From assembly GCF_009469605.1 (NCBI RefSeq), contig NZ_SSXU01000021.1, forward strand, positions 1-64,000: a stretch of 64,000 nucleotides of DNA. Direction: 5' to 3'. This document shows, in pieces, positions 4,711 to 50,676 of this stretch. Position numbers and translations under genes: made by a program. Position 1 is the first letter of the stretch, and each line of letters begins with the position of its first letter. The notes under the pieces were generated by a model. That model searched no databases. It saw only the letters and a list, made by a program, of their open reading frames with translations, and was not told where the DNA came from. The stretch is from Zoogloea sp. 1C4 (GTDB lineage Bacteria; Pseudomonadota; Gammaproteobacteria; Burkholderiales; Rhodocyclaceae).

Positions 4711-5997
4711 TCAGCGCCGCTGGGGGCGCGAGCCCCGCAGCAGCGGGGTGAGCATGTCCATGGTGCGCTCGGTGGCGCCCCGGTGGGATTGGGCAAAGTC
4801 GCGCCCGGCCTGGCCCATGGCGGCGCGGCGGGGCGGGTTGGCGAGGATCTCGATGGCTTCCTCGATGGCGTCTTCGATGTCGTCGGCGCGCACCGCGGCG
4901 CCCACCTCGATGGCCTGCTCGCACACCACCTTGAAGTTGAAGGTGTGGGGCCCGACGATCACCGGGCAGCCCACGGTGCTCGCCTCGATGGGGTTCTGCC
5001 CGCCGAGCTTCTCCCACGAACCGCCGATGATCGCCACGTCGGCCGCCGCGCAGTAGGCGTACATCTCGCCCATCGAATCGCCCAGCCACACGCGGGTGTC
5101 GGCCATCACCGGCACGTCCTTGGAGCGCTTCTGCATCTGCAGGCCGGCGCGCTTGACCAGCTTGGCGACCTCGTCGAAACGCTGCGGGTGGCGCGGCACC
5201 AGCACCAGCAGCACCTCGGGCGGGCACAGCCGGGCGAAGGCTTCGAGCAGCGGGCCTTCCTCGCCCTCGCGGGTGCTGGCGGCCAGCAGCACCCGGCGCT
5301 GGGGCCCGAAGCGGTTGCGGAACACCGCGCCCAGGGCCAGCATCGGCGCCGGCGGGGCGATGTCGAACTTGATGTTGCCGGTGACCATCACGTAGCGCGC
5401 GCCCAGGTTGCTCATGCGCTGGCCGTCGGCTTCGGTTTGGGCGCCGATGGCCGACAGGTGCGCGAAGGCCTTGCGCGCCAGGGCCCCCGCCCGCGCGTAG
5501 CCCTTGGCCGAGCGGGCCGACAGCCGCGCATTGACCATCGCCAGCGGCGTGCCGGTCTGGCGGCAGGCTTCCACCAGGTTGGGCCACAGCTCGGTTTCCA
5601 TCAGGATGCCGAGGCGCGGATGAAAGTGCCGCAGGAAGGCCGCCACGGCCCACGGGAAGTCATAGGGCAGATACACGCTCTGCACCCGCGGCGCGAGGCT
5701 GCCGAAGAGCTCGGCGGCGGTGGCCCGGCCGGTGGGCGTCATGTGGGTGAGCAGCACCGAGTGATCCGGGTGCGCATCGAGCAGCGCGTGGAGCAGCGGC
5801 GCGCAGGCCCGGGTCTCGCCCACCGACACTGCGTGCAGCCAGATCACCGGGCCCGGCGGCAGGCCGGTGTAGCGGCCCAGGCGTTCGCCCACGTGCTGCA
5901 GGTATTCCGGCTGCTTGCGGGCGCGCCACAGCAGCCGCAGCGCGACGAAGGGCGCGGCGACGTACCAGACGGCGGTGTAAAGGCTGCGATGGATCAA
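4711..5997 (-). CDS. waaA: 3-deoxy-D-manno-octulosonic acid (Kdo) transferase
   Basis: A 428-residue membrane-anchored GT-B glycosyltransferase that adds Kdo to lipid IVA at the base of LPS. An N-terminal membrane anchor ([20 protein letters not shown]) is followed by [35 protein letters not shown] (catalytic Glu region), [34 protein letters not shown] and [11 protein letters not shown] prefer the TTG at 5997, which gives the usual length (about 425) and starts just before the anchor. An ATG at 6057 would add 20 atypical residues, and a -10-like TATACT (6032-6027) sits inside that extension. It converges with ubiA. Confidence 0.92.
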
Positions 5998-6166
5998 GGG
6001 GATGGCGATTGATTCGGGAACGTCAAAGTATACCGGGCGTTGCAGATGCCACGGCACAAGTTGTGTCCTGGATTTACGCTGTCATGTGCCCGTGCGAAAA
6101 TGCCGGGCTGACGGTTCCGCTTCCGAAGGCGTGCCCGCCCTACAACCTGCATCGTCCCTCACGAAC

Positions 6167-34415: not shown

Positions 34416-35270
<855 letters not shown>

Positions 35271-35296
35271 CAGTAACAACCTCCTTCACCCAGATG

Positions 35297-40055: not shown

Positions 40056-40358
40056 TTACGGCTGGTCGGTTCGGGCTTGCAGGTGGGCGCAGAAATCTGG
40101 CCCGCCCGCCACCTCGCGCCCCGCGGCCCTGGCGCGCAGGGCGATCAGGCGCAGGTGGTCTTCCCGGTGGCGCAGGCAGTCGTCGTGGGTGCGAAAGCCG
40201 CGCACGCGGGCCTGATGTTCGATGCGTTCCGCCGGGCTCATCAGCGGCCAGCCGGGGGTGTTGCCCTCGTTCGCCCGCCACGGGCCGCGGGCAAACGCGC
40301 CGCCGGCTGCGCAGCTGAGCGCCAGGACGAACATCGTCCGGTACCCCCACTTGATCAT
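40056..40358 (-). CDS. Small exported protein of unknown function
   Basis: A 100-residue protein with a signal peptide (MFVLALSCAAGGAFARG) and a basic, helical mature part (SPAERIEHQARVRGFRTHDD, then CLRHREDHLRLIALRARAAG). Two Cys (in DDCLRH and DFCAHL) may pair. No family recognised. It ends 14 bp before the ferric-reductase-like gene, so it is probably the first gene of that three-gene unit. The start could be the second Met at 40334. Confidence 0.7.
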   Translation of the reverse strand: MIKWGYRTMFVLALSCAAGGAFARGPWRANEGNTPGWPLMSPAERIEHQARVRGFRTHDDCLRHREDHLRLIALRARAAGREVAGGPDFCAHLQARTDQP

Positions 40359-40539
40359 GACATCTCCCTACCCAAGGCTAACAAGGCTAACGGGCGTCAG
40401 TTTACTCCGCCTCTCCGGTCGCCTTGTGCCTTCCGTGAAACACATTTTCTGCCTTGAAGGCCCTCGGAGCCAACCGCGACGCCACGGATCGGGCTGGCGA
40501 GGCGTGGGACGGCGGGGTGATGTGCAATCGGGCGCCTAT

Positions 40540-40554
40540 TTTGTCATGGACAAA
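40540..40554. promoter_or_regulatory. Candidate LitR/CarH operator TTTGTC-ATG-GACAAA
   Basis: A perfect 6+3+6 palindrome overlapping the -35 hexamer of the promoter for the gene at 40683. The same palindrome recurs at 42564 and, degenerate, at 42490, both at the MerR-type regulator. Binding by that regulator is inferred from this co-occurrence. Confidence 0.7.
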
Positions 40555-40575
40555 TGATTCTGGATTGCCTAAAAT
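40547..40575 (+). promoter_or_regulatory. Sigma70-type promoter for the membrane protein at 40683
   Basis: TGGACA (40547-40552), 17 bp, TAAAAT (40570-40575); each hexamer is one base off consensus. The operator covers the -35. The 324-bp gap 40359-40682 holds this promoter, the operator and a downstream palindrome, and no other gene was seen. Confidence 0.65.
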
Positions 40576-40610
40576 TGAGTCAGGTTCAGCCTTGCTAGGG
40601 TTTGTGCCTG

Positions 40611-40629
40611 TTTTGTGTCAAAGACAAAA
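40611..40629. promoter_or_regulatory. Palindrome related to the LitR/CarH operator
   Basis: TTTTGT-GTCAAAG-ACAAAA, six-base arms with a 7-nt spacer. It contains a GACAAA half-site and lies about 28 bp after the expected transcription start, at the place equivalent to the downstream operator at 42564. Spacing differs from the canonical site, so it may be a secondary or decayed operator. Confidence 0.4.
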
Positions 40630-40682
40630 CGGTTTTCTCCTCCTGAGTGGCGTGGCCGGGTGGCCTTTTGAAGGGGTCGAGC

Positions 40683-40997
40683 ATGTCCAGACTGTTCAAG
40701 CGGCTTCCCGGCCAAGTGCCATCCCCCGCCGGTGCCGAACGCGTGGTGCTGCGTCGTCTTCCCCGCATCCTGTTGATCGGCACCCTGCTGCTGGCCCTGC
40801 CGCCGCTGGCTGCCCGACTGTTCACCGACATGGCGCCGGGCCTGGCGATGGTGGACATCTACTGCGTGAGCCTGATCGTCCTGCATTGGACGGTGGTCTT
40901 TACCGTGGGGATCGGGGCCTTCATCGTGATGGTGATGAAAGGCCCGGCCTACGTGGCCGACGCCTATCCCCTCTCCGACGCCGAGCGGCCCGGCTGA
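40683..40997 (+). CDS. Small inner-membrane protein, candidate member of the B12-regulator regulon
   Basis: A 104-residue protein with a basic amphipathic N-terminus (SRLFKRLPGQVPSPAG) and two membrane helices (ILLIGTLLLALPPLAARLF and VSLIVLHWTVVFTVGIGAFI). No family recognised. AAGGGG precedes the ATG. The promoter carries the same palindromic operator as the neighbouring regulator and gpx, so it is probably controlled by the same protein. Convergent with the lipocalin gene, 25 bp apart. Confidence 0.75.
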   Translation: MSRLFKRLPGQVPSPAGAERVVLRRLPRILLIGTLLLALPPLAARLFTDMAPGLAMVDIYCVSLIVLHWTVVFTVGIGAFIVMVMKGPAYVADAYPLSDAERPG

Positions 40998-41022
40998 GGG
41001 CCGCCGGCGCCGTCAGCCGCCG

Positions 41023-41577
41023 TCAGCCGCCGTCATCCTGCCGACCACTCACCAGCCTGTCCGGATCAAAACCCTGCGCAATCAGCCGGGCGCGGATGCC
41101 GGCTTCCGTGCGCGCATCGAGCGCCGGCTTGCGCGCGAGCACCCACAGGAAGCGCCGCGATGGCTCGCTGACCACCACCCACTGGTAGTCGTCGTCGATC
41201 TCCACCACCCAGTAGTCACCCCACACCAGCGGCAGGAAGGACAGCCACGCCGGCGCAAAGCGCACCTCCAGCTTGGGTGACGTAGGCCCGCCGAGCTGCC
41301 GGGCCTCGCCGATCGCTTCGTTCATGCTGCCGTCAGCCAGCCGGCAGCGGTTGGTCACCCGCACGGTGTTGTCGGCTTGCAGCTGGTAATCGGCCGAGGA
41401 TTCGCCGACGCATTGCTTCTGGAAGCGGTTGGGGTAACGGGCGATCTCGTGCCAGCGCCCCATGTAGCGGGGCACGTCGAGGGATTCGATGGTGGTGAGC
41501 GGGGTGGCGGCATCTTCGGCCACGGCCGCCAGTGGCGCCGCGACGGCCAGCGCGGCGGCGATCAGCAGGCGCTTCAT
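41023..41577 (-). CDS. Blc-like bacterial lipocalin
   Basis: A 184-residue exported lipocalin. The signal peptide (LLIAAALAVAAPLAAVA) has no lipobox Cys, unlike E. coli Blc. The family motif is YMGRWHEIARYPNRFQKQC, followed by VRVTNRCRLADG, WGDYWVVEIDDDYQWVVVSEPS and RFLWVLARKP. It may bind or carry lipids, including peroxidised or modified fatty acids. Its ATG overlaps the stop of the MerR-type regulator (ATGA), so it is made together with it. Confidence 0.92.
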   Translation of the reverse strand: MKRLLIAAALAVAAPLAAVAEDAATPLTTIESLDVPRYMGRWHEIARYPNRFQKQCVGESSADYQLQADNTVRVTNRCRLADGSMNEAIGEARQLGGPTSPKLEVRFAPAWLSFLPLVWGDYWVVEIDDDYQWVVVSEPSRRFLWVLARKPALDARTEAGIRARLIAQGFDPDRLVSGRQDDGG

Positions 41578-42488
41578 GATGCAGTGGCCCGGGCGGCGCG
41601 CCACGCGGCAAGGGCGGCGAGGGCGTCGTCGAGGGTGGCGAAGAGCTGCACGCCCTCCTGACGGGCCACCCGGGCCACGCCACGACCGCCGGCCCACAGG
41701 TCGATGTTCGCCGGCAGCATCTGGCGCAGTTGCTGGAGCAGGCCGGGGATCTGGCGCTGGGGAAATGCCACCGAGAACGACAGGGCGACGATGTCGGCCC
41801 GGTGGGCCTCGGCGGCGCGGCTGATCTCCAGCAGCGGCATCTGGGTGCCCAGCGGCACACAGTCGGCACCCTCCAGGGCCAGCATCGATTCGGCCATCAG
41901 CAGACCCAGCACGTGGGGCTCGTCGGGCACGCTGGTCAGCAGCACCCGCGGGCCGCGACCGGCCGTGGGCAGGGTGGCGATCACCTGGCGCAGCAGGCGC
42001 TTGGTGAGCTCGGTGTACAGGTGTTCCTCGAAGACTTCGAAGCTGCCGTTCTCCCAGGCTTCGCCTACCTTTTCGGTCAGCGGGGCGATGGTGTCCTGGA
42101 CAAAGTGCTGCAATCCCTGGCGAGCGAGGCGTTGCTGCATGGCCTGCTGATAGCCGGCGGAATTGTGCTGCTTGATGAGGGCAAGCAGCTCGTCCAGCTC
42201 GACGGCCTCGGCCGGCGGGGTGGATTCGACCGGCCGCGGGCGGCGCGGGGCCAGGCTGGCGAGCTCGTCGGCCGGTGCGCCGATCAGCTTGCCGGGCCGA
42301 TGCCCTTGATCCATCAGGCGTTTGATGAGGCGCAGGCGCTCCACCTGATCGGCCGGATAGACCCGCTCGCCGTTGCAGTCCCGTTGTGGCGTCGGAAAGC
42401 CGTAGCGCCGCTCCCACATGCGCAGGACGTCCTTGGATAGCCCGGTGTCGCGCTCCACGGCGGCGATGTTGAAGCTGAGGGTGTTCAT
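41574..42488 (-). CDS. MerR-family B12-binding regulator, CarH/LitR photoreceptor type
   Basis: A 304-residue repressor-type protein. The N-terminal MerR helix-turn-helix (FNIAAVERDTGLSKDVLRMW, with WERRYGFPTP) is followed by the four-helix cap with W145-x9-E155-H156, the adenosylcobalamin photoreceptor signature. The cobalamin-binding Rossmann domain has ExHxxG in SVPDEPHVLGLLM (His192 the predicted cobalt ligand). In CarH/LitR, dark AdoCbl-tetramer binds DNA and light releases it. The ATG at 42488 has AGGA five bases before it; this ribosome site lies inside the operator at 42490-42504, so autoregulation is likely. A TTG 15 bases upstream is an alternative start. Confidence 0.93.
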   Translation of the reverse strand: MNTLSFNIAAVERDTGLSKDVLRMWERRYGFPTPQRDCNGERVYPADQVERLRLIKRLMDQGHRPGKLIGAPADELASLAPRRPRPVESTPPAEAVELDELLALIKQHNSAGYQQAMQQRLARQGLQHFVQDTIAPLTEKVGEAWENGSFEVFEEHLYTELTKRLLRQVIATLPTAGRGPRVLLTSVPDEPHVLGLLMAESMLALEGADCVPLGTQMPLLEISRAAEAHRADIVALSFSVAFPQRQIPGLLQQLRQMLPANIDLWAGGRGVARVARQEGVQLFATLDDALAALAAWRAARATAS

Positions 42489-42489
42489 A

Positions 42490-42504
42490 TTTGTCCTGAA
42501 CAAT
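42490..42504. promoter_or_regulatory. Degenerate LitR/CarH operator at the regulator start
   Basis: TTTGTC-CTG-AACAAT, matching the palindrome TTTGTC-N3-GACAAA with two changes in one arm. It abuts the regulator's ATG and overlaps its ribosome site. A further GACAAA half-site at 42521 and an ACAAA at 42511 suggest a cluster of weak sites in this 90-bp divergent region. Confidence 0.6.
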
Positions 42505-42518
42505 TGTTAGACAAACCG

Positions 42519-42547
42519 TTGACAAATGGGAATCTGATCCCTATCTT
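42519..42547 (+). promoter_or_regulatory. Strong sigma70-type promoter for the gpx-folE2 operon
   Basis: TTGACA (42519-42524, exact consensus), 17 bp, TATCTT (42542-42547). Flanked upstream by the degenerate operator cluster and downstream by the perfect operator at 42564, a layout suited to repression. The start codon of gpx is 50 bp beyond the -10. Confidence 0.75.
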
Positions 42548-42563
42548 ACGAACAAAGAGCTAT

Positions 42564-42578
42564 TTTGTCTAGGACAAA
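42564..42578. promoter_or_regulatory. Candidate LitR/CarH operator TTTGTC-TAG-GACAAA
   Basis: A perfect 6+3+6 palindrome about 10-25 bp after the expected transcription start of the gpx operon, 18 bp before the gpx ATG. Identical arms to the site at 40540. A repressor here would block initiation or early elongation. Confidence 0.72.
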
Positions 42579-42596
42579 CAAAAAGTGAGGCTGAAC

Positions 42597-43154
42597 ATGC
42601 GTATCCAATCTGGCGGTTTTGCCTGGCTCGCGGCGGTGGTGCTGGCCGGTGCTGCGCCCGGCGTGGCATCCGCCGCCTGCCCGCCGCTGCTGGACCACAG
42701 CTTCACCACGCTCCAGGACGGCAAGCCGATGCCCCTGTGCCAGTACGCCGGCAAGGTGATCCTGGTGGTGAACACCGCCAGCTACTGCGGCTTCACCAGC
42801 CAGTACGACGGGCTCGAAAAGCTCTACGCCCGCCTGAAGGACAAGGGGTTGGTGGTGGTCGGGTTCCCGTCCAACGACTTTGGCGAGCAGGAGCCCGGCA
42901 ACGACAAGGAGATCGCCGATTTCTGCCGGCTCACCTACGGGGTGAAGTTTCCGATGGCCAGCAAGACGGTGGTCAGCGGCAAGGGCGCCAACCCCTTCTA
43001 TCTGAAGCTCGCCGAGATCACCGGCAGCCGCCCCAAGTGGAACTTCCACAAATACCTCATCAACCGGGATGCGACCCAGGTGGTCGCGTACACCAGTTTC
43101 ACCAAGCCGGACGACAAGGAATTGGTCAACAAGATTGACCAATTTCTCAAATAA
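42597..43154 (+). CDS. Exported glutathione-peroxidase-family protein
   Basis: A 185-residue thiol peroxidase with a signal peptide (LAAVVLAGAAPGVASA), so probably periplasmic. The peroxidatic Cys lies in NTASYCGFTSQYDGLEKLY, and the WNF motif in RPKWNFHKYLINRD gives the conserved Trp and Asn. The usual catalytic Gln (FPxNQFGxQEPG) is replaced by Asp in FPSNDFGEQEPG. It may reduce lipid hydroperoxides. First gene of the run controlled by the B12 regulator; 24 bp to folE2. Confidence 0.92.
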   Translation: MRIQSGGFAWLAAVVLAGAAPGVASAACPPLLDHSFTTLQDGKPMPLCQYAGKVILVVNTASYCGFTSQYDGLEKLYARLKDKGLVVVGFPSNDFGEQEPGNDKEIADFCRLTYGVKFPMASKTVVSGKGANPFYLKLAEITGSRPKWNFHKYLINRDATQVVAYTSFTKPDDKELVNKIDQFLK

Positions 43155-43178: not shown

Positions 43179-43979
43179 ATGAATGCCCCCGAGTCCATCT
43201 TTCTCCCCGACGTGCAGTCCTCCGTCGATCATCGCCGGCTGGCGATCCACCAGGTGGGCGTGAAGGGCCTGCGCTACCCCCTCGCCTGGCGGGCTGCCGG
43301 CGGCGAGACGGTGAACTCCGTGGCCACCGTGACCATGAGCGTCGGCCTGCCGCCGGAGGTCAAGGGCACCCACATGTCGCGCTTCGTCGAGCTGCTCGAA
43401 GCCCGCGACGGAGCCCTAGACCACGCCGGCCTGCTGGCCATGGCCGACGAGATGCTGCTGCGCCTGGATGCCGCCAGCGGACGCATCGAGATGGCTTTCG
43501 CCTACTTCATCAAAAAGGCGGCGCCGGTTTCAGGCGTCGAGAGCCTGCTCGATTACGACGTGACCCTGATCGCCGAGCGGCTCGAGAACGAGGCGCCCCG
43601 GCTCACCTTGCGGGTCGTCGCGCCGGTCACCAGCCTGTGCCCGTGCTCCAAGAAGATCTCGGCTTACGGCGCCCACAACCAGCGCTCCCACATCACGCTG
43701 GAGGCCCGCCTGCGTGCGCCGATGGACATCGAGGAACTGGTGCGCATCGCCGAGGACGAGGCCTCCTGCGAGGTCTTCGGGCTGCTCAAGCGGCCGGATG
43801 AAAAGTGGGTCACCGAGCGCGCCTACGACAACCCCAAGTTCGTCGAGGATCTGGTGCGCGACATCGCCCTGCGCATGGCCGCCGAGCCGCGCATCGCCGA
43901 ATGGAAGGTGGCCTCCGAGAACTTCGAGTCCATCCACAACCACTCCGCCTACGCCGAGCTGTACGGCTGCAACCCCTGA
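43179..43979 (+). CDS. folE2: GTP cyclohydrolase FolE2 (type IB)
   Basis: A 266-residue enzyme converting GTP to 7,8-dihydroneopterin triphosphate, the first step to folate. FolE2 tolerates metals other than zinc. Landmarks are VSMSVGLP-like [20 protein letters not shown], the metal/active-site Cys in [19 protein letters not shown], and the C-terminal [13 protein letters not shown]. In many bacteria folE2 responds to zinc limitation; here it sits in an operon behind a light/B12-type operator, so it may supply pterin or folate under photostress. No Zur site seen. Confidence 0.95.
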
Positions 43980-43987
43980 GGCACGCC

Positions 43988-45298
43988 ATGCACCCAAAGC
44001 AACGCATCGCCGTGGTCGGGGCCGGCATCTCGGGCCTCGCCACCGCCTGGCTGCTGGGCCGCGATCATGCGGTGACCCTCTTCGAGGCCGGCGACTACCT
44101 GGGCGGCCACACCAACACCGTCGATGTGACGCTGGAAGGCCGCAGTCACCCGATGGATACCGGCTTCCTGGTGTTCAACGAGAAGACCTACCCCAACCTC
44201 ATCGCCATGTTTGCGCTGCTGGGCGTGGAGAGCGTCGAGACCGAGATGTCCTTCGCGGTCAGCCTCGAATCGCCCAACCTCGAATGGGCCGGCAGCAACC
44301 TGGCGACGATCTTCGGCCAGAAGCGCAACCTGGTGCGTCGGCGCTTCTGGGCGATGCTCTCCGACATCCTGCGCTTCAACCGCGAATGCACCGCCTGGCT
44401 CGACGCCAACCCCGACAACGACCTCCGGCTGCGGGATTTCCTCACCGAGGGGCGCTACTCCCGCGCCTTCGCAGACTGGTATCTGCTGCCCATGGCGGCG
44501 GCCATCTGGTCCTGCCCCACCGGCCAGATGCTCGACATGCCGCTCGCCACCTTCATCCGCTTCTGCCACAACCACGGCCTGCTGCAGATCTTCGACCGGC
44601 CCATGTGGCGCACCGTCAAGGGCGGCGGGCGTGAATACGTGCGGCGCATCGCCGCCCAGCTCGACGACGTGCGGCTGGCCTGCCCGGTGACCGCGGTGCG
44701 CCGCAGCGGCGCCGGCCTGCAACTCACCCACCGCCACGGCACCGAGACCTTCGACCAGGTGGTTATGGCCTGCCACAGCGACCAGGCCCTGACCATCCTC
44801 GGCGACACCGCCAGCCCAGCCCAGCGCAAGGTGCTGTCGGCGATCCGCTACCAGCCCAACCGCGCGGTGCTCCACACCGACAAGGCGCTGCTGCCCCGCG
44901 ACCCGCGCCTGTGGTCGGCGTGGAACTACTTCGCCGGCCGCGGCGAGCCGGGCCACCAGCCGGTGGGCGTGTCCTACCTCATCAACCGCCTGCAGCCGCT
45001 GCCCTTCCGCACGCCGGTGGTGGTCACCCTCAACCCCGCGCGGGAGCCCGACCCGGCCAGCGTGATCGCCGAGTTCGACTACGCCCACCCGATCTTCGAC
45101 GGCCCGGCCATCGCCGCCCAGCAGCGCTTGCCGGCGGTGCAGGGAGAGGGTGGCGTGTGGCTGGCCGGCGCCTGGGGCAGCTTCGGCTTCCACGAAGACG
45201 GCCTGCGCTCGGCGCTGGCGGTGGCCAACCGGCTCGGCGTGATGGCCCCGTGGCAGGGCGAGGCGCCGGCGAACGCCCGCCAGGCCGAACTGGCCTGA
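43988..45298 (+). CDS. FAD-dependent amine-oxidase-like protein
   Basis: A 436-residue flavoprotein of the NAD(P)-binding-8/amine oxidase group. The FAD motif is VVGAGISGLATAWLLG, followed by the GG doublet FEAGDYLGGHTNTVDV and MDTGFLVFNEKTYPNL. The C-terminal FAD segment is VWLAGAWGSFGFHEDGLRSA. Homologues sit with DUF1365 and a cyclopropane-type methyltransferase; in Rhodobacter a homologous set is tied to the singlet-oxygen response and to furan fatty acids as I recall, where such a protein may desaturate a methylated acyl chain. Substrate here unproven. Confidence 0.88.
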   Translation: MHPKQRIAVVGAGISGLATAWLLGRDHAVTLFEAGDYLGGHTNTVDVTLEGRSHPMDTGFLVFNEKTYPNLIAMFALLGVESVETEMSFAVSLESPNLEWAGSNLATIFGQKRNLVRRRFWAMLSDILRFNRECTAWLDANPDNDLRLRDFLTEGRYSRAFADWYLLPMAAAIWSCPTGQMLDMPLATFIRFCHNHGLLQIFDRPMWRTVKGGGREYVRRIAAQLDDVRLACPVTAVRRSGAGLQLTHRHGTETFDQVVMACHSDQALTILGDTASPAQRKVLSAIRYQPNRAVLHTDKALLPRDPRLWSAWNYFAGRGEPGHQPVGVSYLINRLQPLPFRTPVVVTLNPAREPDPASVIAEFDYAHPIFDGPAIAAQQRLPAVQGEGGVWLAGAWGSFGFHEDGLRSALAVANRLGVMAPWQGEAPANARQAELA

Positions 45299-45303
45299 AG
45301 CCC

Positions 45304-46071
45304 ATGAACACCGCACCGGAAATCCTCCTTGGTCACGTGATGCACCGCCGGCTGCGCCCGGCGATGCATGCCTTCGTGTATCCGGTGTTCTTCGTCCGCC
45401 TGCCCCTGCGCCGGCTCGAATCCGCCCGCCGGGCGATCTTCGGCATCGAGCGCTGGAACCTCCTCGGCTTTCGCACCGCCGACCACGGCCCCCGCGACGG
45501 CAGCCCGCTGCTGCCGTGGATCGAGTCCCTGCTGCGCGCCCGCGGCCTGCCGGCGGATGGCGAGATCGTCCTGCAGACCTTTCCGCGCGTGTTCGGCTAC
45601 GTGTTCAACCCGGTGAGCTTCTGGTTCTGCCACGACCGCGCCGGCCAGCTGGTGGCGGTGCTGGCCGAGGTGAACAACACCTTCGGCGGCCGCCACGCCT
45701 ATTTGCTCCACCACCCGGACGGCGCGCCCATCTGCGATGCGGACGAGTTCGGCGCCGACAAGGTCTTCCACGTCTCGCCCTTCAACCGCGTGGAAGGCAG
45801 CTACCGCTTCCGCTTCCAGCTCGGCCGCAGCGTGCAGGCCGTGCACATCGACTACGACGACGCCGAAGGCGAGCTCCTCGCCACCGCCATCAGCGGCCGT
45901 CCGCGCGCGTGGACGACCCGCGCCCTCGCCGCCGCCCTCGCGCGGATGCCCTTCCTCACCCTGGGTGTGATCGCCCGCATCCACTGGCAGGCCCTGCGCC
46001 TGTGGTGGAAGGGCGTGCCCTTCCTCGGCGCCCGCCCGCCCAACCCAGCCCTTCAGGAATCGACAAAATGA
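45304..46071 (+). CDS. DUF1365 family protein
   Basis: A 255-residue protein of the DUF1365 family. The conserved blocks are GHVMHRRLRPAMHAFVYPVF, FPRVFGYVFNPVSFWFCHD, LAEVNNTFGGRHAYLL, KVFHVSPFNRVEGSYRFRF, and a C-terminal membrane-proximal IHWQALRLWWKGVPF. Function unknown; it always travels with the FAD protein before it and the methyltransferase after it. It overlaps the methyltransferase start (ATGA), so the three are a coupled unit. Confidence 0.93.
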   Translation: MNTAPEILLGHVMHRRLRPAMHAFVYPVFFVRLPLRRLESARRAIFGIERWNLLGFRTADHGPRDGSPLLPWIESLLRARGLPADGEIVLQTFPRVFGYVFNPVSFWFCHDRAGQLVAVLAEVNNTFGGRHAYLLHHPDGAPICDADEFGADKVFHVSPFNRVEGSYRFRFQLGRSVQAVHIDYDDAEGELLATAISGRPRAWTTRALAAALARMPFLTLGVIARIHWQALRLWWKGVPFLGARPPNPALQESTK

Positions 46072-47258
46072 ACAACACGATGATCCTGCGCGGCGTTGCC
46101 CGCGATGCCGCGTCCCGCGACACCCGCACCGTCTTCGACCTGCTCGACAAGCTCGAAGGCGGCCCGCTGGAGGTGCGCCTGCCCGACGGCTCCTGCGTGC
46201 TCTTCGGCCACGGCGACCGGGGCGTCACCCTGCAGGTGCACGACAAGGCCGTGTTCAGCCAGATCCTCGCCCGGGGCGACATCGGCCTCGCCGAAGCCTA
46301 CATCGACGGCCTGTGGGATTCGCCCGATCTGCCCGGTCTGCTCACCCTGCTCGCCGCCAATCGCGACGTGCTCAAGAAGGCGCTCTACGGCTCGTGGCGC
46401 GAGCTGCTGTCGGCGCGCCTGCGCCACTGGCTCAACCGCAACAGCCGGGCCGGCAGCAAGCGCAACATCATGGCCCACTACGACCTGGGCAACGACTTCT
46501 ACAGCCTGTGGCTCGACCCCAGCATGAGCTACTCGTCGGCGCTCTACCGCGAGGCGCTGGAGCCCACCTTCGAATCCGCCCAGGAGGCCAAGTACCGCCG
46601 CATCCTGCGCCGCCTCGACCCCGAGCCCGGCCAGCGCATCCTCGAGATCGGCTGCGGCTGGGGCGGTTTTGCCGAGCTCGCCACCCGTCGCGGCGCCCAG
46701 GTCACCGGCCTCACCCTGTCGCCGGCCCAGCAGGCCTGGAGCCGCGCCCGGGTGCCCGAGGCCGACATCCGTCTGCAGGACTACCGGGACGTGAAGGAGC
46801 GCTTCGACCACATCGTCTCCATCGAGATGTTCGAGGCCGTGGGCGAGCGCTGGTGGCCCAGCTATTTCCGCACCATCGCCCGCAACCTCGCCCCCGGCGG
46901 CAAGGCGCTGGTTCAGACCATCACCATTCATGACGAGCTCTTCCCCCGCTACCGCAAGGGCACCGATTTCATCCAGCAGTACATCTTCCCCGGCGGCATG
47001 CTGCCGTCGCGCAAGGCCTTCCGCGCGGTGGCGGCAAAGGCCGGGCTGGCGGTGAAGGATGAGTTCGCCTTCGGCCACGACTACGCGGTGACCCTTGCCC
47101 AGTGGCGCGCCAACTTCGACGCCAACTGGCCGCGCATCGAGCGGCTGGGCTTCGACGACACCTTCCGCCGCCTGTGGCGGATGTATCTCGGTTACTGCGA
47201 GGCGGGCTTCCGGGCCGGCAGCGTCGATGTGGTCCAGTTCGAGCTTGTCCACCGCTAG
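46068..47258 (+). CDS. Cyclopropane-fatty-acyl-phospholipid synthase family methyltransferase
   Basis: A 396-residue SAM-dependent enzyme acting on unsaturated acyl chains of membrane phospholipids. The SAM motif is RILEIGCGWGGFAELATRRG (about residue 188), preceded by NIMAHYDLGNDFYSLWLDPS and followed by VSIEMFEAVGERWWPSYF and QQYIFPGGMLPS, all typical of CFA synthases. Given its partners it may be of the UfaM type, making methylated or furan fatty acids rather than cyclopropane rings; sequence alone cannot decide. No signal peptide. Confidence 0.92.
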   Translation: MNNTMILRGVARDAASRDTRTVFDLLDKLEGGPLEVRLPDGSCVLFGHGDRGVTLQVHDKAVFSQILARGDIGLAEAYIDGLWDSPDLPGLLTLLAANRDVLKKALYGSWRELLSARLRHWLNRNSRAGSKRNIMAHYDLGNDFYSLWLDPSMSYSSALYREALEPTFESAQEAKYRRILRRLDPEPGQRILEIGCGWGGFAELATRRGAQVTGLTLSPAQQAWSRARVPEADIRLQDYRDVKERFDHIVSIEMFEAVGERWWPSYFRTIARNLAPGGKALVQTITIHDELFPRYRKGTDFIQQYIFPGGMLPSRKAFRAVAAKAGLAVKDEFAFGHDYAVTLAQWRANFDANWPRIERLGFDDTFRRLWRMYLGYCEAGFRAGSVDVVQFELVHR

Positions 47259-47757
47259 GCGCCGGCTGCTGCTGGCGCTGGCCATCTGGCCCTGGCTGCC
47301 GGCCCTCGCCGCCGAGCCGTCCGCGCCCGTCCGCGGGCTGCGCCGCTGGGGGCAGGGCGAGTTCCGGCGCTTCGGCTTCCTCGTCTATGAGGCCACCCTG
47401 TGGGGCGGCGACGACCCCGTTCGTCCGCCGCTGGCCCTGCGCCTCGACTACCGGCGCAACATCGCCGGCAGCGCCATCGCCGAAGCCAGCGTGAAGGAGA
47501 TGCGCCAGCTTGGCGCCGACGAAGCCCTGCTGCGCCGCTGGGGCCCGGAGATGGCCCGGCTCTTCCCGGACGTGAAACCCGGCGACCACATCGTCGGCGT
47601 GTATCGGCCTGAGGGCGCGAGCTTCCTGTTCAACGGCCGGCCGCTGGGCGAGATCCCGGAGCCGGAGTTCGCCCGCCGCTTCTTTGGCATCTGGCTCGAC
47701 CCCCGCACCAGCGCCCCGGATCTGCGCGCCGCCCTGCTGCGTCGGCCGGAAGGCTGA
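47245..47757 (+). CDS. Exported chalcone-isomerase-like protein
   Basis: A 170-residue protein with a twin-Arg-like signal start (STARRRLLLALAIWPWLPAL, then A) and a chalcone-isomerase-like fold: RRWGQGEFRRFGFLVYEATL, LDYRRNIAGSAIAEASVKEM, and FLFNGRPLGEIPEPEFARRFFGIWLD. In bacteria this fold often binds fatty acids or heme rather than flavonoids. The TTG at 47245 gives the best signal peptide; an ATG at 47227 is also possible. Overlaps the methyltransferase by 14 bp. Confidence 0.85.
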   Translation: MSTARRRLLLALAIWPWLPALAAEPSAPVRGLRRWGQGEFRRFGFLVYEATLWGGDDPVRPPLALRLDYRRNIAGSAIAEASVKEMRQLGADEALLRRWGPEMARLFPDVKPGDHIVGVYRPEGASFLFNGRPLGEIPEPEFARRFFGIWLDPRTSAPDLRAALLRRPEG

Positions 47758-47758
47758 G

Positions 47759-48985
47759 ATGCCCGCCCGCCGCGCCCTTGCCTACGGCCTGCTGGGCCTG
47801 CCGCTGGCCTTTGCCGCGCTGCCGGTTTATGTGCACGTGCCGCGGCTGTACGCCGAGACCGCCGGGCTGCCGCTGGCGCTGCTGGGGGCGATCCTGCTGG
47901 GCGCACGCCTCCTCGACGCCGGCATCGACCCCTGGCTGGGCTGGCTGGCCGACCGGCTGCCCCGGCGCGGGATGCTCGCGGTGGCGCTGCTGCCCTTTGC
48001 CGCCGGCTTCGCGGCCCTCGTCAATCCGCCCGCCAGCCACGCCGCCGCCTGGCTATTGGGGGCGCTGGCGCTCACCTATCTCGGTTTCTCGGCGGCCACC
48101 GTGGCCTACCAGGCCTGGGGCGCCGACATCGCGCCGGATTCGGCCGAGCGCACCCGCTTCACCGCCGCCCGGGAAGGCTTCGGGCTGGCCGGCGTGGTGC
48201 TCGCCGCGGCCCTGCCCGGGCTGCTGGCGGCCGATCACAACACCGGCCTCGGCCGGCTCGGCTGGGTGCTGCCGCCTCTGCTGCTGGTGGCCGCGGTGAC
48301 GACGCTGGTGGGCGTCGGGCCGGCGGCGGGGCGCGTCGCCGCGCTGGCCGAGCCGGTCGGGGCCAGCCTGCGCGGCGCTCTGGGCGATGCCGCCTTCCGG
48401 CGCCTGCTGGCGGTGTTCGTCGCCAACGGCCTCGCTGCGGCGTTGCCGGCCACCTTGTTCCCGTTTTTCGTGGCCGACGTACTTGAGGCCGACGCCGCCG
48501 GCGGGCCGCTGCTGGTGGCCTACTTCCTGGCCGGCGCGGCGTCGCTGCCCCTGTGGGTGAGGCTCGCCGCGCGGCACGGCCGGGTGACGGCCTGGCTCGG
48601 CGCGATGGGGCTGGCGATGCTCGCCTTCGGCTGGGCGGCCCGGCTGGGGCCCGGCGACGTGGCGGGCTTTGCGCTGGTCTGCGTGGCCTCCGGGCTGGCC
48701 CTCGGGGCCGATCTGGCGCTGCCCGCCGCCATCGCCGCCGACCTGGGCGAACGCCAGGGCCGGGCCGGCGCCTGCTTCGGGGTGTGGAACCTCGCCGCCA
48801 AACTCAACCTGGCCCTCGCCGCCGGGCTGGCCCTGCCGCTGCTGGCGTGGCTGGGCTATCAACCGGGCAGCGGCACCGGGCTGCCCGCCCTCAGCTTCAC
48901 CTACGCGCTGTTGCCGCTGGCCTTCAAGGCGGTGGCGGCGGCGCTTCTGTGGCGCTGGCGCCACCTGCTGGAGATCACATCATGA
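47759..48985 (+). CDS. MFS transporter, GPH-symporter-like
   Basis: A 408-residue carrier with twelve hydrophobic segments. The cytoplasmic loop motif is DPWLGWLADRLPRRGM, a GPH/MFS signature. EGFGLAGVVLAAALPGLLA and AACFGVWNLAAKLNLAL-like segments are typical of the MelB-like branch, but sugar-binding residues are not evident. In related light/singlet-oxygen clusters a similar carrier occurs at the same place. Substrate unknown, possibly a lipid or its precursor. Starts one base after the preceding stop. Confidence 0.86.
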   Translation: MPARRALAYGLLGLPLAFAALPVYVHVPRLYAETAGLPLALLGAILLGARLLDAGIDPWLGWLADRLPRRGMLAVALLPFAAGFAALVNPPASHAAAWLLGALALTYLGFSAATVAYQAWGADIAPDSAERTRFTAAREGFGLAGVVLAAALPGLLAADHNTGLGRLGWVLPPLLLVAAVTTLVGVGPAAGRVAALAEPVGASLRGALGDAAFRRLLAVFVANGLAAALPATLFPFFVADVLEADAAGGPLLVAYFLAGAASLPLWVRLAARHGRVTAWLGAMGLAMLAFGWAARLGPGDVAGFALVCVASGLALGADLALPAAIAADLGERQGRAGACFGVWNLAAKLNLALAAGLALPLLAWLGYQPGSGTGLPALSFTYALLPLAFKAVAAALLWRWRHLLEITS

Positions 48986-49500
48986 AAACCCTGCTCGCCA
49001 CGGCCCTGTGCCTCGGCCTCACCGCCTGCGCCTCGCCGGGCGTCGAACAGTACAAGGCCGAAACCCCGGTGCTCGATCTGCGCACCTACCTCAACGGCAC
49101 CGTCGATGGCTGGGGGATGTTCCAGGGGCGCTCCGGTGAGGTGAAGAAGCGCTTCCACGTGGTGATCGACGCCCGCTGGGAGGGCGACACCGGCGTGCTC
49201 GACGAGCACTTCCAGTGGTCCGACGGCAGCACCTCGCGCCGGGTGTGGACGCTCACCCGCCAGCCCGACGGCACCTACCGGGGCCGCGCCGACGACGTGA
49301 TCGGCGAGGCCACCGGCAACGCCCTGCGCTGGCGCTACGTGCTGGCCCTGCCGGTGGATGGCCGCACCTATCACGTGGATTTTGATGACTGGATGTTCCT
49401 GATGGACGGGCAGGTGATGATGAACCGCTCGTACATGTCGAAATGGGGCTTCCGGCTGGGCGAGGTGACCCTCACCTTCGTCCGCCGGCCCGGGTCATGA
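48982..49500 (+). CDS. DUF3833 lipoprotein
   Basis: A 172-residue lipoprotein. Lipobox LGLTAC gives Cys at about residue 16. Conserved blocks are FQGRSGEVKKRFHVVIDARW, DEHFQWSDGSTSRRVWTL, GRADDVIGEATGNALRWRY and VDFDDWMFLMDGQVMMNRSY. Function unknown. It overlaps its neighbours by four bases on both sides, so it belongs to the same translationally coupled operon. Confidence 0.92.
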   Translation: MKTLLATALCLGLTACASPGVEQYKAETPVLDLRTYLNGTVDGWGMFQGRSGEVKKRFHVVIDARWEGDTGVLDEHFQWSDGSTSRRVWTLTRQPDGTYRGRADDVIGEATGNALRWRYVLALPVDGRTYHVDFDDWMFLMDGQVMMNRSYMSKWGFRLGEVTLTFVRRPGS

Positions 49501-50258
49501 ACCCGAAGATCACTGACTGGCGCGGCCGGCGGGTGTGGCTGGTGGGCGCCTCCAGCGGCATCGGCGCGGCGCTGGCGCAGCATCTGGCCGGGCTGGGGGC
49601 GCGGCTGGCCCTCACCGCCCGCAGCGCCGACCGGCTGGCGGGGCTCGATATCGGCGATGCCGACGCCCTGATCCTGCCTTGCGATGCCACCGACGCCGCA
49701 GCCCTGGCGGCCGCCCGGGACAGCCTCGTTGCCGCCTGGCAGGGGGTCGATCTGGTGATCTACCTCGCCGGCGATTACGTGCCGATGACCGCTGCCAGCT
49801 TCGATCTGGCGGTGGCCGAGCGGGTGGTGGCGGTCAACTTTGGCGGGGCGATGCGCCTCGCCGCCTGCGTGCTGGGCGATCTGCAGCCCGGCGGCGGGAT
49901 CGCCTTCGTGGCCAGCGTGGCCGGCTACCGCGGCCTGCCCCGGGCCCTGTGCTACGGGCCGGGCAAGGCGGCGCTGATCCACTTTGCCGAATGCCTGCAT
50001 TTCGATCTGGCGCCGAAGGGCGTCGGGGTGTGGGTGGTCAATCCGGGCTTTGTGGCCACCCGGCTCACCGCCCGCAACGACTTTGCCATGCCCGCGTTGA
50101 TGAGCCCCGATGCCGCCGCCGAGGCGCTGGTGGCGGGGCTCGCCACGGGAAGCTTCGAGATCGATTTCCCTAAACGCTTCACCCGCATCATGAAGCTGCT
50201 GGCGCTGCTGCCTTACCGCTGGTATTTCCCGCTGGTGCGCCGGCGGACCGGAGACTGA
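49497..50258 (+). CDS. Short-chain dehydrogenase/reductase
   Basis: A 253-residue SDR. The cofactor motif is VWLVGASSGIGAALAQHLAG; the catalytic residues appear as Ser in FVASVAGYRGLP and YxxxK in CYGPGKAALIHF. The C-terminus has a hydrophobic, basic stretch (MKLLALLPYRWYFPLVRRR) that may touch the membrane. Substrate unknown; operon partners suggest an acyl or modified-lipid substrate. Confidence 0.9.
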   Translation: MNPKITDWRGRRVWLVGASSGIGAALAQHLAGLGARLALTARSADRLAGLDIGDADALILPCDATDAAALAAARDSLVAAWQGVDLVIYLAGDYVPMTAASFDLAVAERVVAVNFGGAMRLAACVLGDLQPGGGIAFVASVAGYRGLPRALCYGPGKAALIHFAECLHFDLAPKGVGVWVVNPGFVATRLTARNDFAMPALMSPDAAAEALVAGLATGSFEIDFPKRFTRIMKLLALLPYRWYFPLVRRRTGD

Positions 50259-50259
50259 A

Positions 50260-50676
50260 ATGAGCCTGAACGCCCTGATCGCCTATTACGAGAGCCTCAC
50301 CGAGGAGAGTGTCGTCCGCCTGCCGGCCTTCTACGCCGAGGACGCCACCTTCACCGACCCCTTCAACGACGTGCGCGGCGTGCCGGCGATCCAGCGCATC
50401 TTCCGGCACATGTTCCGCCAGGTGGAGACCCCGCGCTTCGTGGTGCTCGAGAAGGTGGCGGATGCGGATGGCGCGGTGCTGGTGTGGGCTTTCCACTTCC
50501 GCTTCCGGCGCAGCGGGCCCGAGCAGGTGATCCAGGGCGTGTCGCACCTCAAGTTTGACGATGACGGCCGGGTGAACTTCCACCGGGATTACTGGGACGC
50601 CGCCAGCGAGCTCTACATGAAGCTCCCCGGCATCAGCCTGTTGTTGCGGCTGCTGCGCCGGAAGCTGGCTGCCTGA
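50260..50676 (+). CDS. NTF2/SnoaL-like fold protein
   Basis: A 138-residue small alpha+beta protein: LIAYYESLTEESVVRLPAFY, EDATFTDPFNDVRGVPAIQ, FRQVETPRFVV and HLKFDDDGRVNFHRDYWDA. This is the NTF2-like pattern, which can be an enzyme (isomerase/cyclase) or a ligand-binding domain. Starts 1 bp after the SDR stop. It is the last gene of the B12-regulated run; the 159 bp to the next gene hold no gene or obvious terminator. Confidence 0.85.
   Translation: MSLNALIAYYESLTEESVVRLPAFYAEDATFTDPFNDVRGVPAIQRIFRHMFRQVETPRFVVLEKVADADGAVLVWAFHFRFRRSGPEQVIQGVSHLKFDDDGRVNFHRDYWDAASELYMKLPGISLLLRLLRRKLAA

Follow-up and report, generated by a model that had tools for sequence, protein, structure and literature searches.

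A stretch of 64,000 nucleotides from Zoogloea sp. 1C4 (contig NZ_SSXU01000021.1, positions 1 to 64,000; the window) carries the palindrome TTTGTC-N3-GACAAA at two separate promoters. This palindrome is probably the operator of an adenosylcobalamin (AdoCbl)-type LitR/CarH repressor that would bind DNA in the dark and leave it in the light. The genomic case is a strong one, with the family and residues of the regulator, the operator code, the promoter architecture, its conservation, and the target genes all readable from the sequence. The regulator gene, litR (41574 to 42488, minus strand), encodes a protein of 304 amino acids and begins directly beside one copy of the palindrome.

A motif scan of the window located exact copies at 40540 to 40554 and 42564 to 42578, and with up to two mismatches allowed it gave five matches where 0.58 were expected, a number that none of 100 shuffles attained. 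The original prediction had described two perfect copies and one degenerate copy shared by separate promoters; the perfect copies and the sharing were borne out, but the degenerate copies number two, at 40614 to 40628 and 42490 to 42504. The fifth match, with two mismatches at 42090, lies within litR and was dropped as an operator because the promoter scan gives no promoter-like site there. In the organism's own genome (5.02 Mb, 140 contigs), there are only three exact copies, two in the window and one in a flavoprotein/photolyase locus (C9:9932), and the reversed control pattern has none. The scan thus argues against a generally common motif, the outcome that the original prediction had named as damaging, and a chance palindrome was likewise rejected since window shuffles, the reversed control, and shuffled palindromes at litR promoters all gave lower counts. 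Looser candidates were also set aside. A shorter core at one mismatch was too loose for use (at least 83 places in the genome, versus 38 for its reversed control), exact cores on contigs C58 and C86 have GAA/TTC spacers that are absent from 111 litR-promoter sites (a set that leaves out the window and locus L107), and a one-mismatch place on C64 was put aside.

Read from the sequence, the palindrome is part of a larger unit, a bidirectional promoter with overlapping -10 boxes, with -35 boxes in or in register with the operators, and with 11-bp repeats. Outward from litR the order is palindrome, TTGACA-N17-TATCTT, and second palindrome. The proximal operator, a degenerate palindrome with two mismatches (42490 to 42504), sits one base from the litR start codon (ATG, 42488 to 42486), as originally claimed, and carries AGGA on the litR strand 5 nt before the ATG. 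Three tandem 11-bp CarH-type repeats of the form nnnnTnnACAn lie on the plus strand (42497 to 42524), namely TGAACA (42497), TAGACA (42508), and TTGACA (42519), and the third of these is the -35 box of the promoter of the gpx-folE2-lipid operon (TTGACA-N17-TATCTT, 42519 to 42547, plus strand). The distal operator is the exact palindrome at 42564 to 42578; its start is 74 bp from that of the proximal operator. On the reverse strand, T[AG]GACA-N17-TANNNT points toward litR, and both -10 boxes overlap in CTATCTTAG. The likely litR promoter (TAGACA-N17-TAAGAT, 42543 to 42571, minus strand) has its -35 within the distal operator and its -10 over that of the divergent promoter. The consensus scan of 40300 to 42900 returned exactly these two sites and a third promoter at 40547 to 40575. 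Both promoters of the original prediction (40547 to 40575 and 42519 to 42547) are therefore among the three, and the minus-strand site at 42571 to 42543 is the one that it had overlooked.

The promoter at 40547 (TGGACA-N17-TAAAAT, plus strand) precedes the gene for a small, hydrophobic protein of 104 amino acids (40683 to 40997, plus strand) that is judged by eye to be a likely membrane protein and matched no Pfam or NCBIfam family. This gene has its own operator pair, also 74 bp apart: the exact palindrome at 40540 to 40554, which overlaps the -35, and a copy with one mismatch at 40614 to 40628. In Zoogloea MAG.512 both operators and the -35 are identical, the -10 differs by one base, and the spacer has drifted. 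A terminator-like hairpin at 40608 to 40632, followed by TTTTCTCC, overlaps the second operator within the leader of the small-protein gene and is a possible attenuator; it is almost identical in Zoogloea MAG.512, and one such hairpin was found where shuffles of the scanned region gave 1.9.

LitR combines a MerR helix-turn-helix (Pfam MerR_1, 3.5e-13) with a B12-binding_2 domain (1.3e-08) and a Rossmann B12-binding domain (2.3e-07), the last scoring 31.1 bits, slightly below its 32.1-bit cut-off. Residues 6 to 287 align with the Thermus thermophilus CarH in the PDB (E = 1.7e-30). Against the NCBIfam CarH equivalog model NF052513, the protein scores 128.3 bits, below the 400-bit cut-off, which makes it a relative and not the equivalog. 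The genome contains one LitR-type match at E ≤ 1e-25, and a small, specific regulon under one CarH/LitR-type regulator is supported. LitR homologs occur at 86 places in 81 of 199 related genomes; we analyzed 71 loci, comprising 70 of those places and one from Geobacter. The AdoCbl light-sensor signatures claimed for the regulator, W-x9-EH (WENGSFEVFEEH) and ExHxxG (EPHVLG), are indeed present. They align with W131, E141, H142, and H177 of CarH, residues that hold AdoCbl there, and are intact in all 71 loci, as are the SignatureFinder motifs GxxW, EH, and GxxxP. The genome has four cobalamin riboswitches and a single PduO-type adenosyltransferase, which suggests a cofactor supply.

The operator arrangement recurs well beyond Zoogloea. 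Palindromes with up to two mismatches, called in the interval from -140 to +10 relative to the litR start, are present at 63 of the 71 promoters in 39 genera. The reversed pattern is present at 3, and shuffled palindromes average 1.35 (maximum, 14). Pairs are found at 52 promoters in 29 genera, with spacings of 62 (1 pair), 63 (29), 64 (5), 74 (16), and 86 bp (1), all of them about whole helical turns. Among these pairs, a reverse -35 of T[AG]GACA is present in 50, a forward -35 of TTGACN in 49, TANNNT at each -10 in 50, and all four boxes in 46. Since the palindrome largely dictates the reverse -35, more weight falls on the -10 boxes and the 17-bp spacing. In 29 promoters, columns within the sites are 87 to 92% identical, compared with 37% in the spacers. 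TnnACA pairs at an 11-bp step on the divergent strand occur in 27 of the 71 loci and triples in 6 (shuffles, 0.16 and 0), while offsets of 7 to 10 and 12 to 15 are each found in at most 2 loci. On the strand of the adjoining gene, AGGA also occurs in the distal operator of 48 of the 52 pairs and in the proximal operator of 33 (other strand, 0 and 2). It may represent a Shine-Dalgarno site or simply supply the T required by the TnnACA repeat, and either would fit; in the window, only the litR AGGA is well placed as a Shine-Dalgarno site. Autoregulation, as originally proposed, is supported, with the unit amended to palindrome plus 11-bp TnnACA repeats on a shared bidirectional promoter.

Across the 199 genomes, an exact palindrome is present in 63 of 81 LitR-positive and 30 of 118 LitR-negative genomes (Fisher p = 1.8e-13, uncorrected for relatedness), at 117 and 36 places, respectively. 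The reversed control is found at 5 and 19 places, in 5 of the LitR-positive and 16 of the LitR-negative genomes. The code seems to reach beyond the betaproteobacteria. At the litR of a Geobacter metagenome-assembled genome (L007), an exact palindrome lies 17 bp ahead of the start (5985 to 5999), and an ABC1-kinase-like open reading frame (26% match) lies upstream on the opposite strand. Five of the seven non-Thermus plasmid records with a homolog were examined: Azoarcus has two sites (one exact and one with one mismatch), Eleftheria has two exact sites, and Comamonas has one with one mismatch. No palindrome was found at the Caballeronia and Allorhizobium plasmid litR genes, whose start codons were guessed, and the code is therefore not universal.

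The predicted target genes serve membrane protection and DNA repair. A lipocalin gene (41023 to 41577, minus strand; Pfam Lipocalin_2, 1e-43) overlaps the end of litR and is likely cotranscribed with it. The divergent plus-strand operon begins with genes for a glutathione peroxidase (gpx, 42597 to 43154; Pfam GSHPx) and a GTP cyclohydrolase (folE2, 43179 to 43979; GCHY-1), followed by a flavin adenine dinucleotide (FAD)-dependent amine-oxidase-like protein (43988 to 45298; Amino_oxidase), a DUF1365 protein (45304 to 46071; Pfam), and a methyltransferase resembling cyclopropane/furan fatty acid synthases (46068 to 47258; CMAS), with a presumed cyclopropane or furan fatty acid as its product. 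The tail of the operon (47263 to 50676) encodes chalcone isomerase-like, MFS_2, DUF3833, and short-chain dehydrogenase/reductase (SDR) proteins and an open reading frame at the place of an NTF2-family gene in Azoarcus sp. KH32C, and its gene order matches that strain. On the Azoarcus plasmid pAZKH, the order is flavoprotein, DUF1365, cfa, chalcone, MFS, DUF3833, SDR, and NTF2, with gpx and folE2 not in the stretch and with litR palindromes 74 bp apart. This LitR-lipid operon (L182; 713228 to 730064) resides on a 738-kb plasmid typed as mobilizable. In the 71 litR stretches, some of them shortened, tblastn matches at E ≤ 1e-8, which are not checked orthologs, were obtained for the FAD-oxidoreductase in 57, DUF1365 in 52, cfa/ufaM-like genes in 50, gpx in 35, folE2 in 34, MFS in 23, and the lipocalin in 6. 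About 6 kb from the regulon, the window also encodes an alternative sigma factor of the sigma-70 family that has regions 1.2, 2, and 4 (34416 to 35279, minus strand).

Sites away from litR show a similar set of neighbors. The 23 genomes of the genus have 41 exact palindrome places and no place with the reversed control, and the places away from both litR and the small membrane protein gene are spread over 20 stretches. Fifteen of these remote stretches adjoin FAD-oxidoreductase, photolyase/cryptochrome, SDR, DUF3429, or ABC1 kinase genes, and photolyase genes are present in eight. Sites at photolyase and membrane-lipid genes are supported, in line with the original prediction. In other genomes, homologs of the small-protein gene are found next to palindromes, with FAD-oxidoreductase, DUF3429, or ABC1 genes as neighbors. 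Exact palindromes also stand beside a CBS-domain gene in genomes G005 and G022 (L165, 4133; L168, 3743), and copies inside flavoprotein coding sequence in G015, G021, and G012 may be a coding coincidence. No carotenoid gene was recognized among the targets seen, and carotenoid desaturase models match the N-terminal part of the window flavoprotein only weakly, far below their cut-offs. The genome has two tandem PF00494 genes, which resemble the hopanoid genes hpnC and hpnD.

In the mechanism that we propose, AdoCbl-loaded LitR would bind in the dark to the operator pair that brackets the shared bidirectional promoter. The upstream half would comprise a palindrome and the 11-bp repeats running into the -35 of the gpx-folE2-lipid operon, and the downstream half the palindrome that holds the litR -35. 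Both promoter directions would be shut, and LitR would thereby repress itself. Light would cleave the Co-C bond and LitR would leave the DNA, allowing expression of litR-lipocalin, of gpx-folE2-flavoprotein-DUF1365-cfa/ufaM, of the small membrane protein, and of the flavoprotein-photolyase/SDR locus, a photoprotection program without a recognized carotenoid gene. Spacings of 62 to 64, 74, or 86 bp would place the operators on about the same helix face, where binding could be cooperative or bridging. AdoCbl binding, DNA binding, repression, light release, and bridging are the steps that we infer.

Several observations weigh against this reading. The position of CarH His132 is a histidine in none of the 71 loci; it is E in the window LitR, and the residue after the Trp is otherwise distributed as L 24, M 20, E 8 (in all), V 7, A 6, T 2, F 2, S 1, and I 1. 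Because this bis-His ligand is missing throughout, the light-state chemistry must differ from that of T. thermophilus CarH, and the release route of that protein is not to be assumed. In the sections of PMC10442372 on this residue, H132A CarH is described as largely tetrameric in light, and an earlier report cited there has H132A CarH disassembling. According to PMC11796333, this position is R, Q, or Y in some other cobalamin photoreceptors, and His132 is therefore not family defining. A role for LitR as a cobalamin photosensor is plausible, since the AdoCbl-holding residues are kept and such photoreceptors are known. Other points on the same side are that the SignatureFinder motif GxxH is DxxH in the window LitR, with Gly there in 12 of 71 loci, and that a search of the genome recovered no CobA/BtuR adenosyltransferase. 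At the DNA level, 8 of the 71 loci lack a site between -140 and +10, 30 LitR-negative genomes have an exact copy (control, 16), and 5 of the 20 remote stretches (G018:C22, G001:C41, G019, G005, and G022) match no light gene. The compared genomes are related, so their counts are not independent. A one-mismatch scan of the Zoogloea genome gave 5 motif places versus 6 for the reversed control; loose copies alone are therefore uninformative, and it is exact, paired, or promoter-placed copies that count.

The missing histidine also lends some force to two other accounts of what LitR senses. LitR might bind the operators without being a light sensor, with repression relieved by a short LOV or blue-light partner or by another cue, as described in parts of PMC9758184 for the class II LitR PmlR2, which is released by a LOV protein and has two sites, the first overlapping the -35 and the other downstream of the start. 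We regard this as unlikely, as the PmlR proteins covered there are without a recognizable Rossmann B12 domain, whereas the window LitR has both B12 domains and W-x9-EH and the H177 equivalent are kept in every locus. Still less probable is that LitR reports B12 status, repressing folate, lipid, and redox genes in response to the AdoCbl level and not to light. The retention of AdoCbl-binding residues when the light-state His is gone would suit such a protein, and the riboswitches show that the cell monitors B12, but the photolyase/cryptochrome genes among the targets suit light, the exact genome scan gives no palindrome on the riboswitch contigs C31, C56, and C77, and photoreceptors with other residues at the His132 position exist.

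A separate question is whether the spacing reflects paired operators. It may reflect only promoter geometry, with two -35 boxes around a shared -10, and duplication of the 11-bp repeat, a possibility to which we give somewhat less than an even chance. The distal operator follows the divergent -35 by 45 bp in 49 of the 52 pairs, irrespective of class, which is what a bidirectional promoter requires, and relative to the 63-bp group the 74-bp group carries one extra 11-bp step separating the -35 from the first palindrome. On the other hand, the pair at 40540 and 40614 is also 74 bp apart, though its promoter is shifted by 22 bp relative to the downstream site, and no pair is spaced 65 to 73 bp despite at least 6 changes of spacing class on the LitR protein tree (15.5 in shuffles). 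The strongly supported branches by themselves require 3 changes for the 62- to 64-bp class and 4 for the 74-bp class; this tree has 74 rows, 54 with a spacing, and was made by a quick method with Shimodaira-Hasegawa-like approximate likelihood ratio test (SH-aLRT) support only. A fuller picture, which we offer tentatively and with rather more doubt than belief, is that of a betaproteobacterial cobalamin-photoreceptor branch without the bis-His switch, in which twin palindromes about 6, 7, or 8 turns apart would clamp a bidirectional promoter. There the operators would double as -35 boxes and often as Shine-Dalgarno sites, so that one light-released repressor would set both directions.

The literature already describes, from different bacteria, CarH/LitR repressors, 11-bp repeats, promoters with two operators, and photolyase, UfaM, and folE targets. 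T. thermophilus CarH shares the domains, the W131/E141/H142/H177 equivalents, and a photolyase gene at its locus, and its promoter has three 11-bp TnnACA repeats that agree with the published operator, and one of them, TTGACA, is the -35, according to sections of PMC9304148. It differs in having H132, in showing no palindrome at up to two mismatches where the litR loci here have paired palindromes, and in that no carotenoid gene was recognized among the targets seen here; the two proteins are about 34% identical over 82%. Class II LitR proteins of Pseudomonas (PplR/PmlR), in the portions of PMC9758184 that treat them, likewise control photolyase, FAD-oxidoreductase, SDR, UfaM, and folE genes; of their two operators, one sits on the -35 and the other downstream of the start. 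Their site is TGTACA-N12-TGTACA, they are described as having no functional B12 domain, and they are LOV controlled, whereas the window LitR has a Rossmann domain and the site TTTGTC-N3-GACAAA. The Myxococcales CarA and CarH share the 11-bp repeats, with inverted repeats, in the case of CarA, that lie both upstream of the -35 and over it (PMC9304148, in part), but control carotenoid operons, and many have His after the Trp. The MerR-like VCA0056 of Vibrio cholerae, acting with ChrR/sigma-E, belongs to a blue-light response, shared with an anti-sigma factor, in which photolyase and a CFA synthase gene take part (PMC5241685, in part). Bidirectional promoters with symmetrical elements are also known (PMC12825309, PMC10268837).

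In the open-license literature we found no description of the palindrome code, the helically phased pairs, the His132-less branch, or the betaproteobacterial regulon, and the literal motif forms returned one unrelated match. The results provide a testable operator code for a widespread B12-photoreceptor branch that is undescribed in the literature found, and they challenge the generality of the bis-His mechanism. The compact bidirectional promoter might also serve as an optogenetic part for green light. For the betaproteobacteria themselves, non-carotenoid photoprotection, through membrane lipids, folate/pterin, and photolyases, would be tied to light, and light sensing in nonphotosynthetic members should become directly testable.

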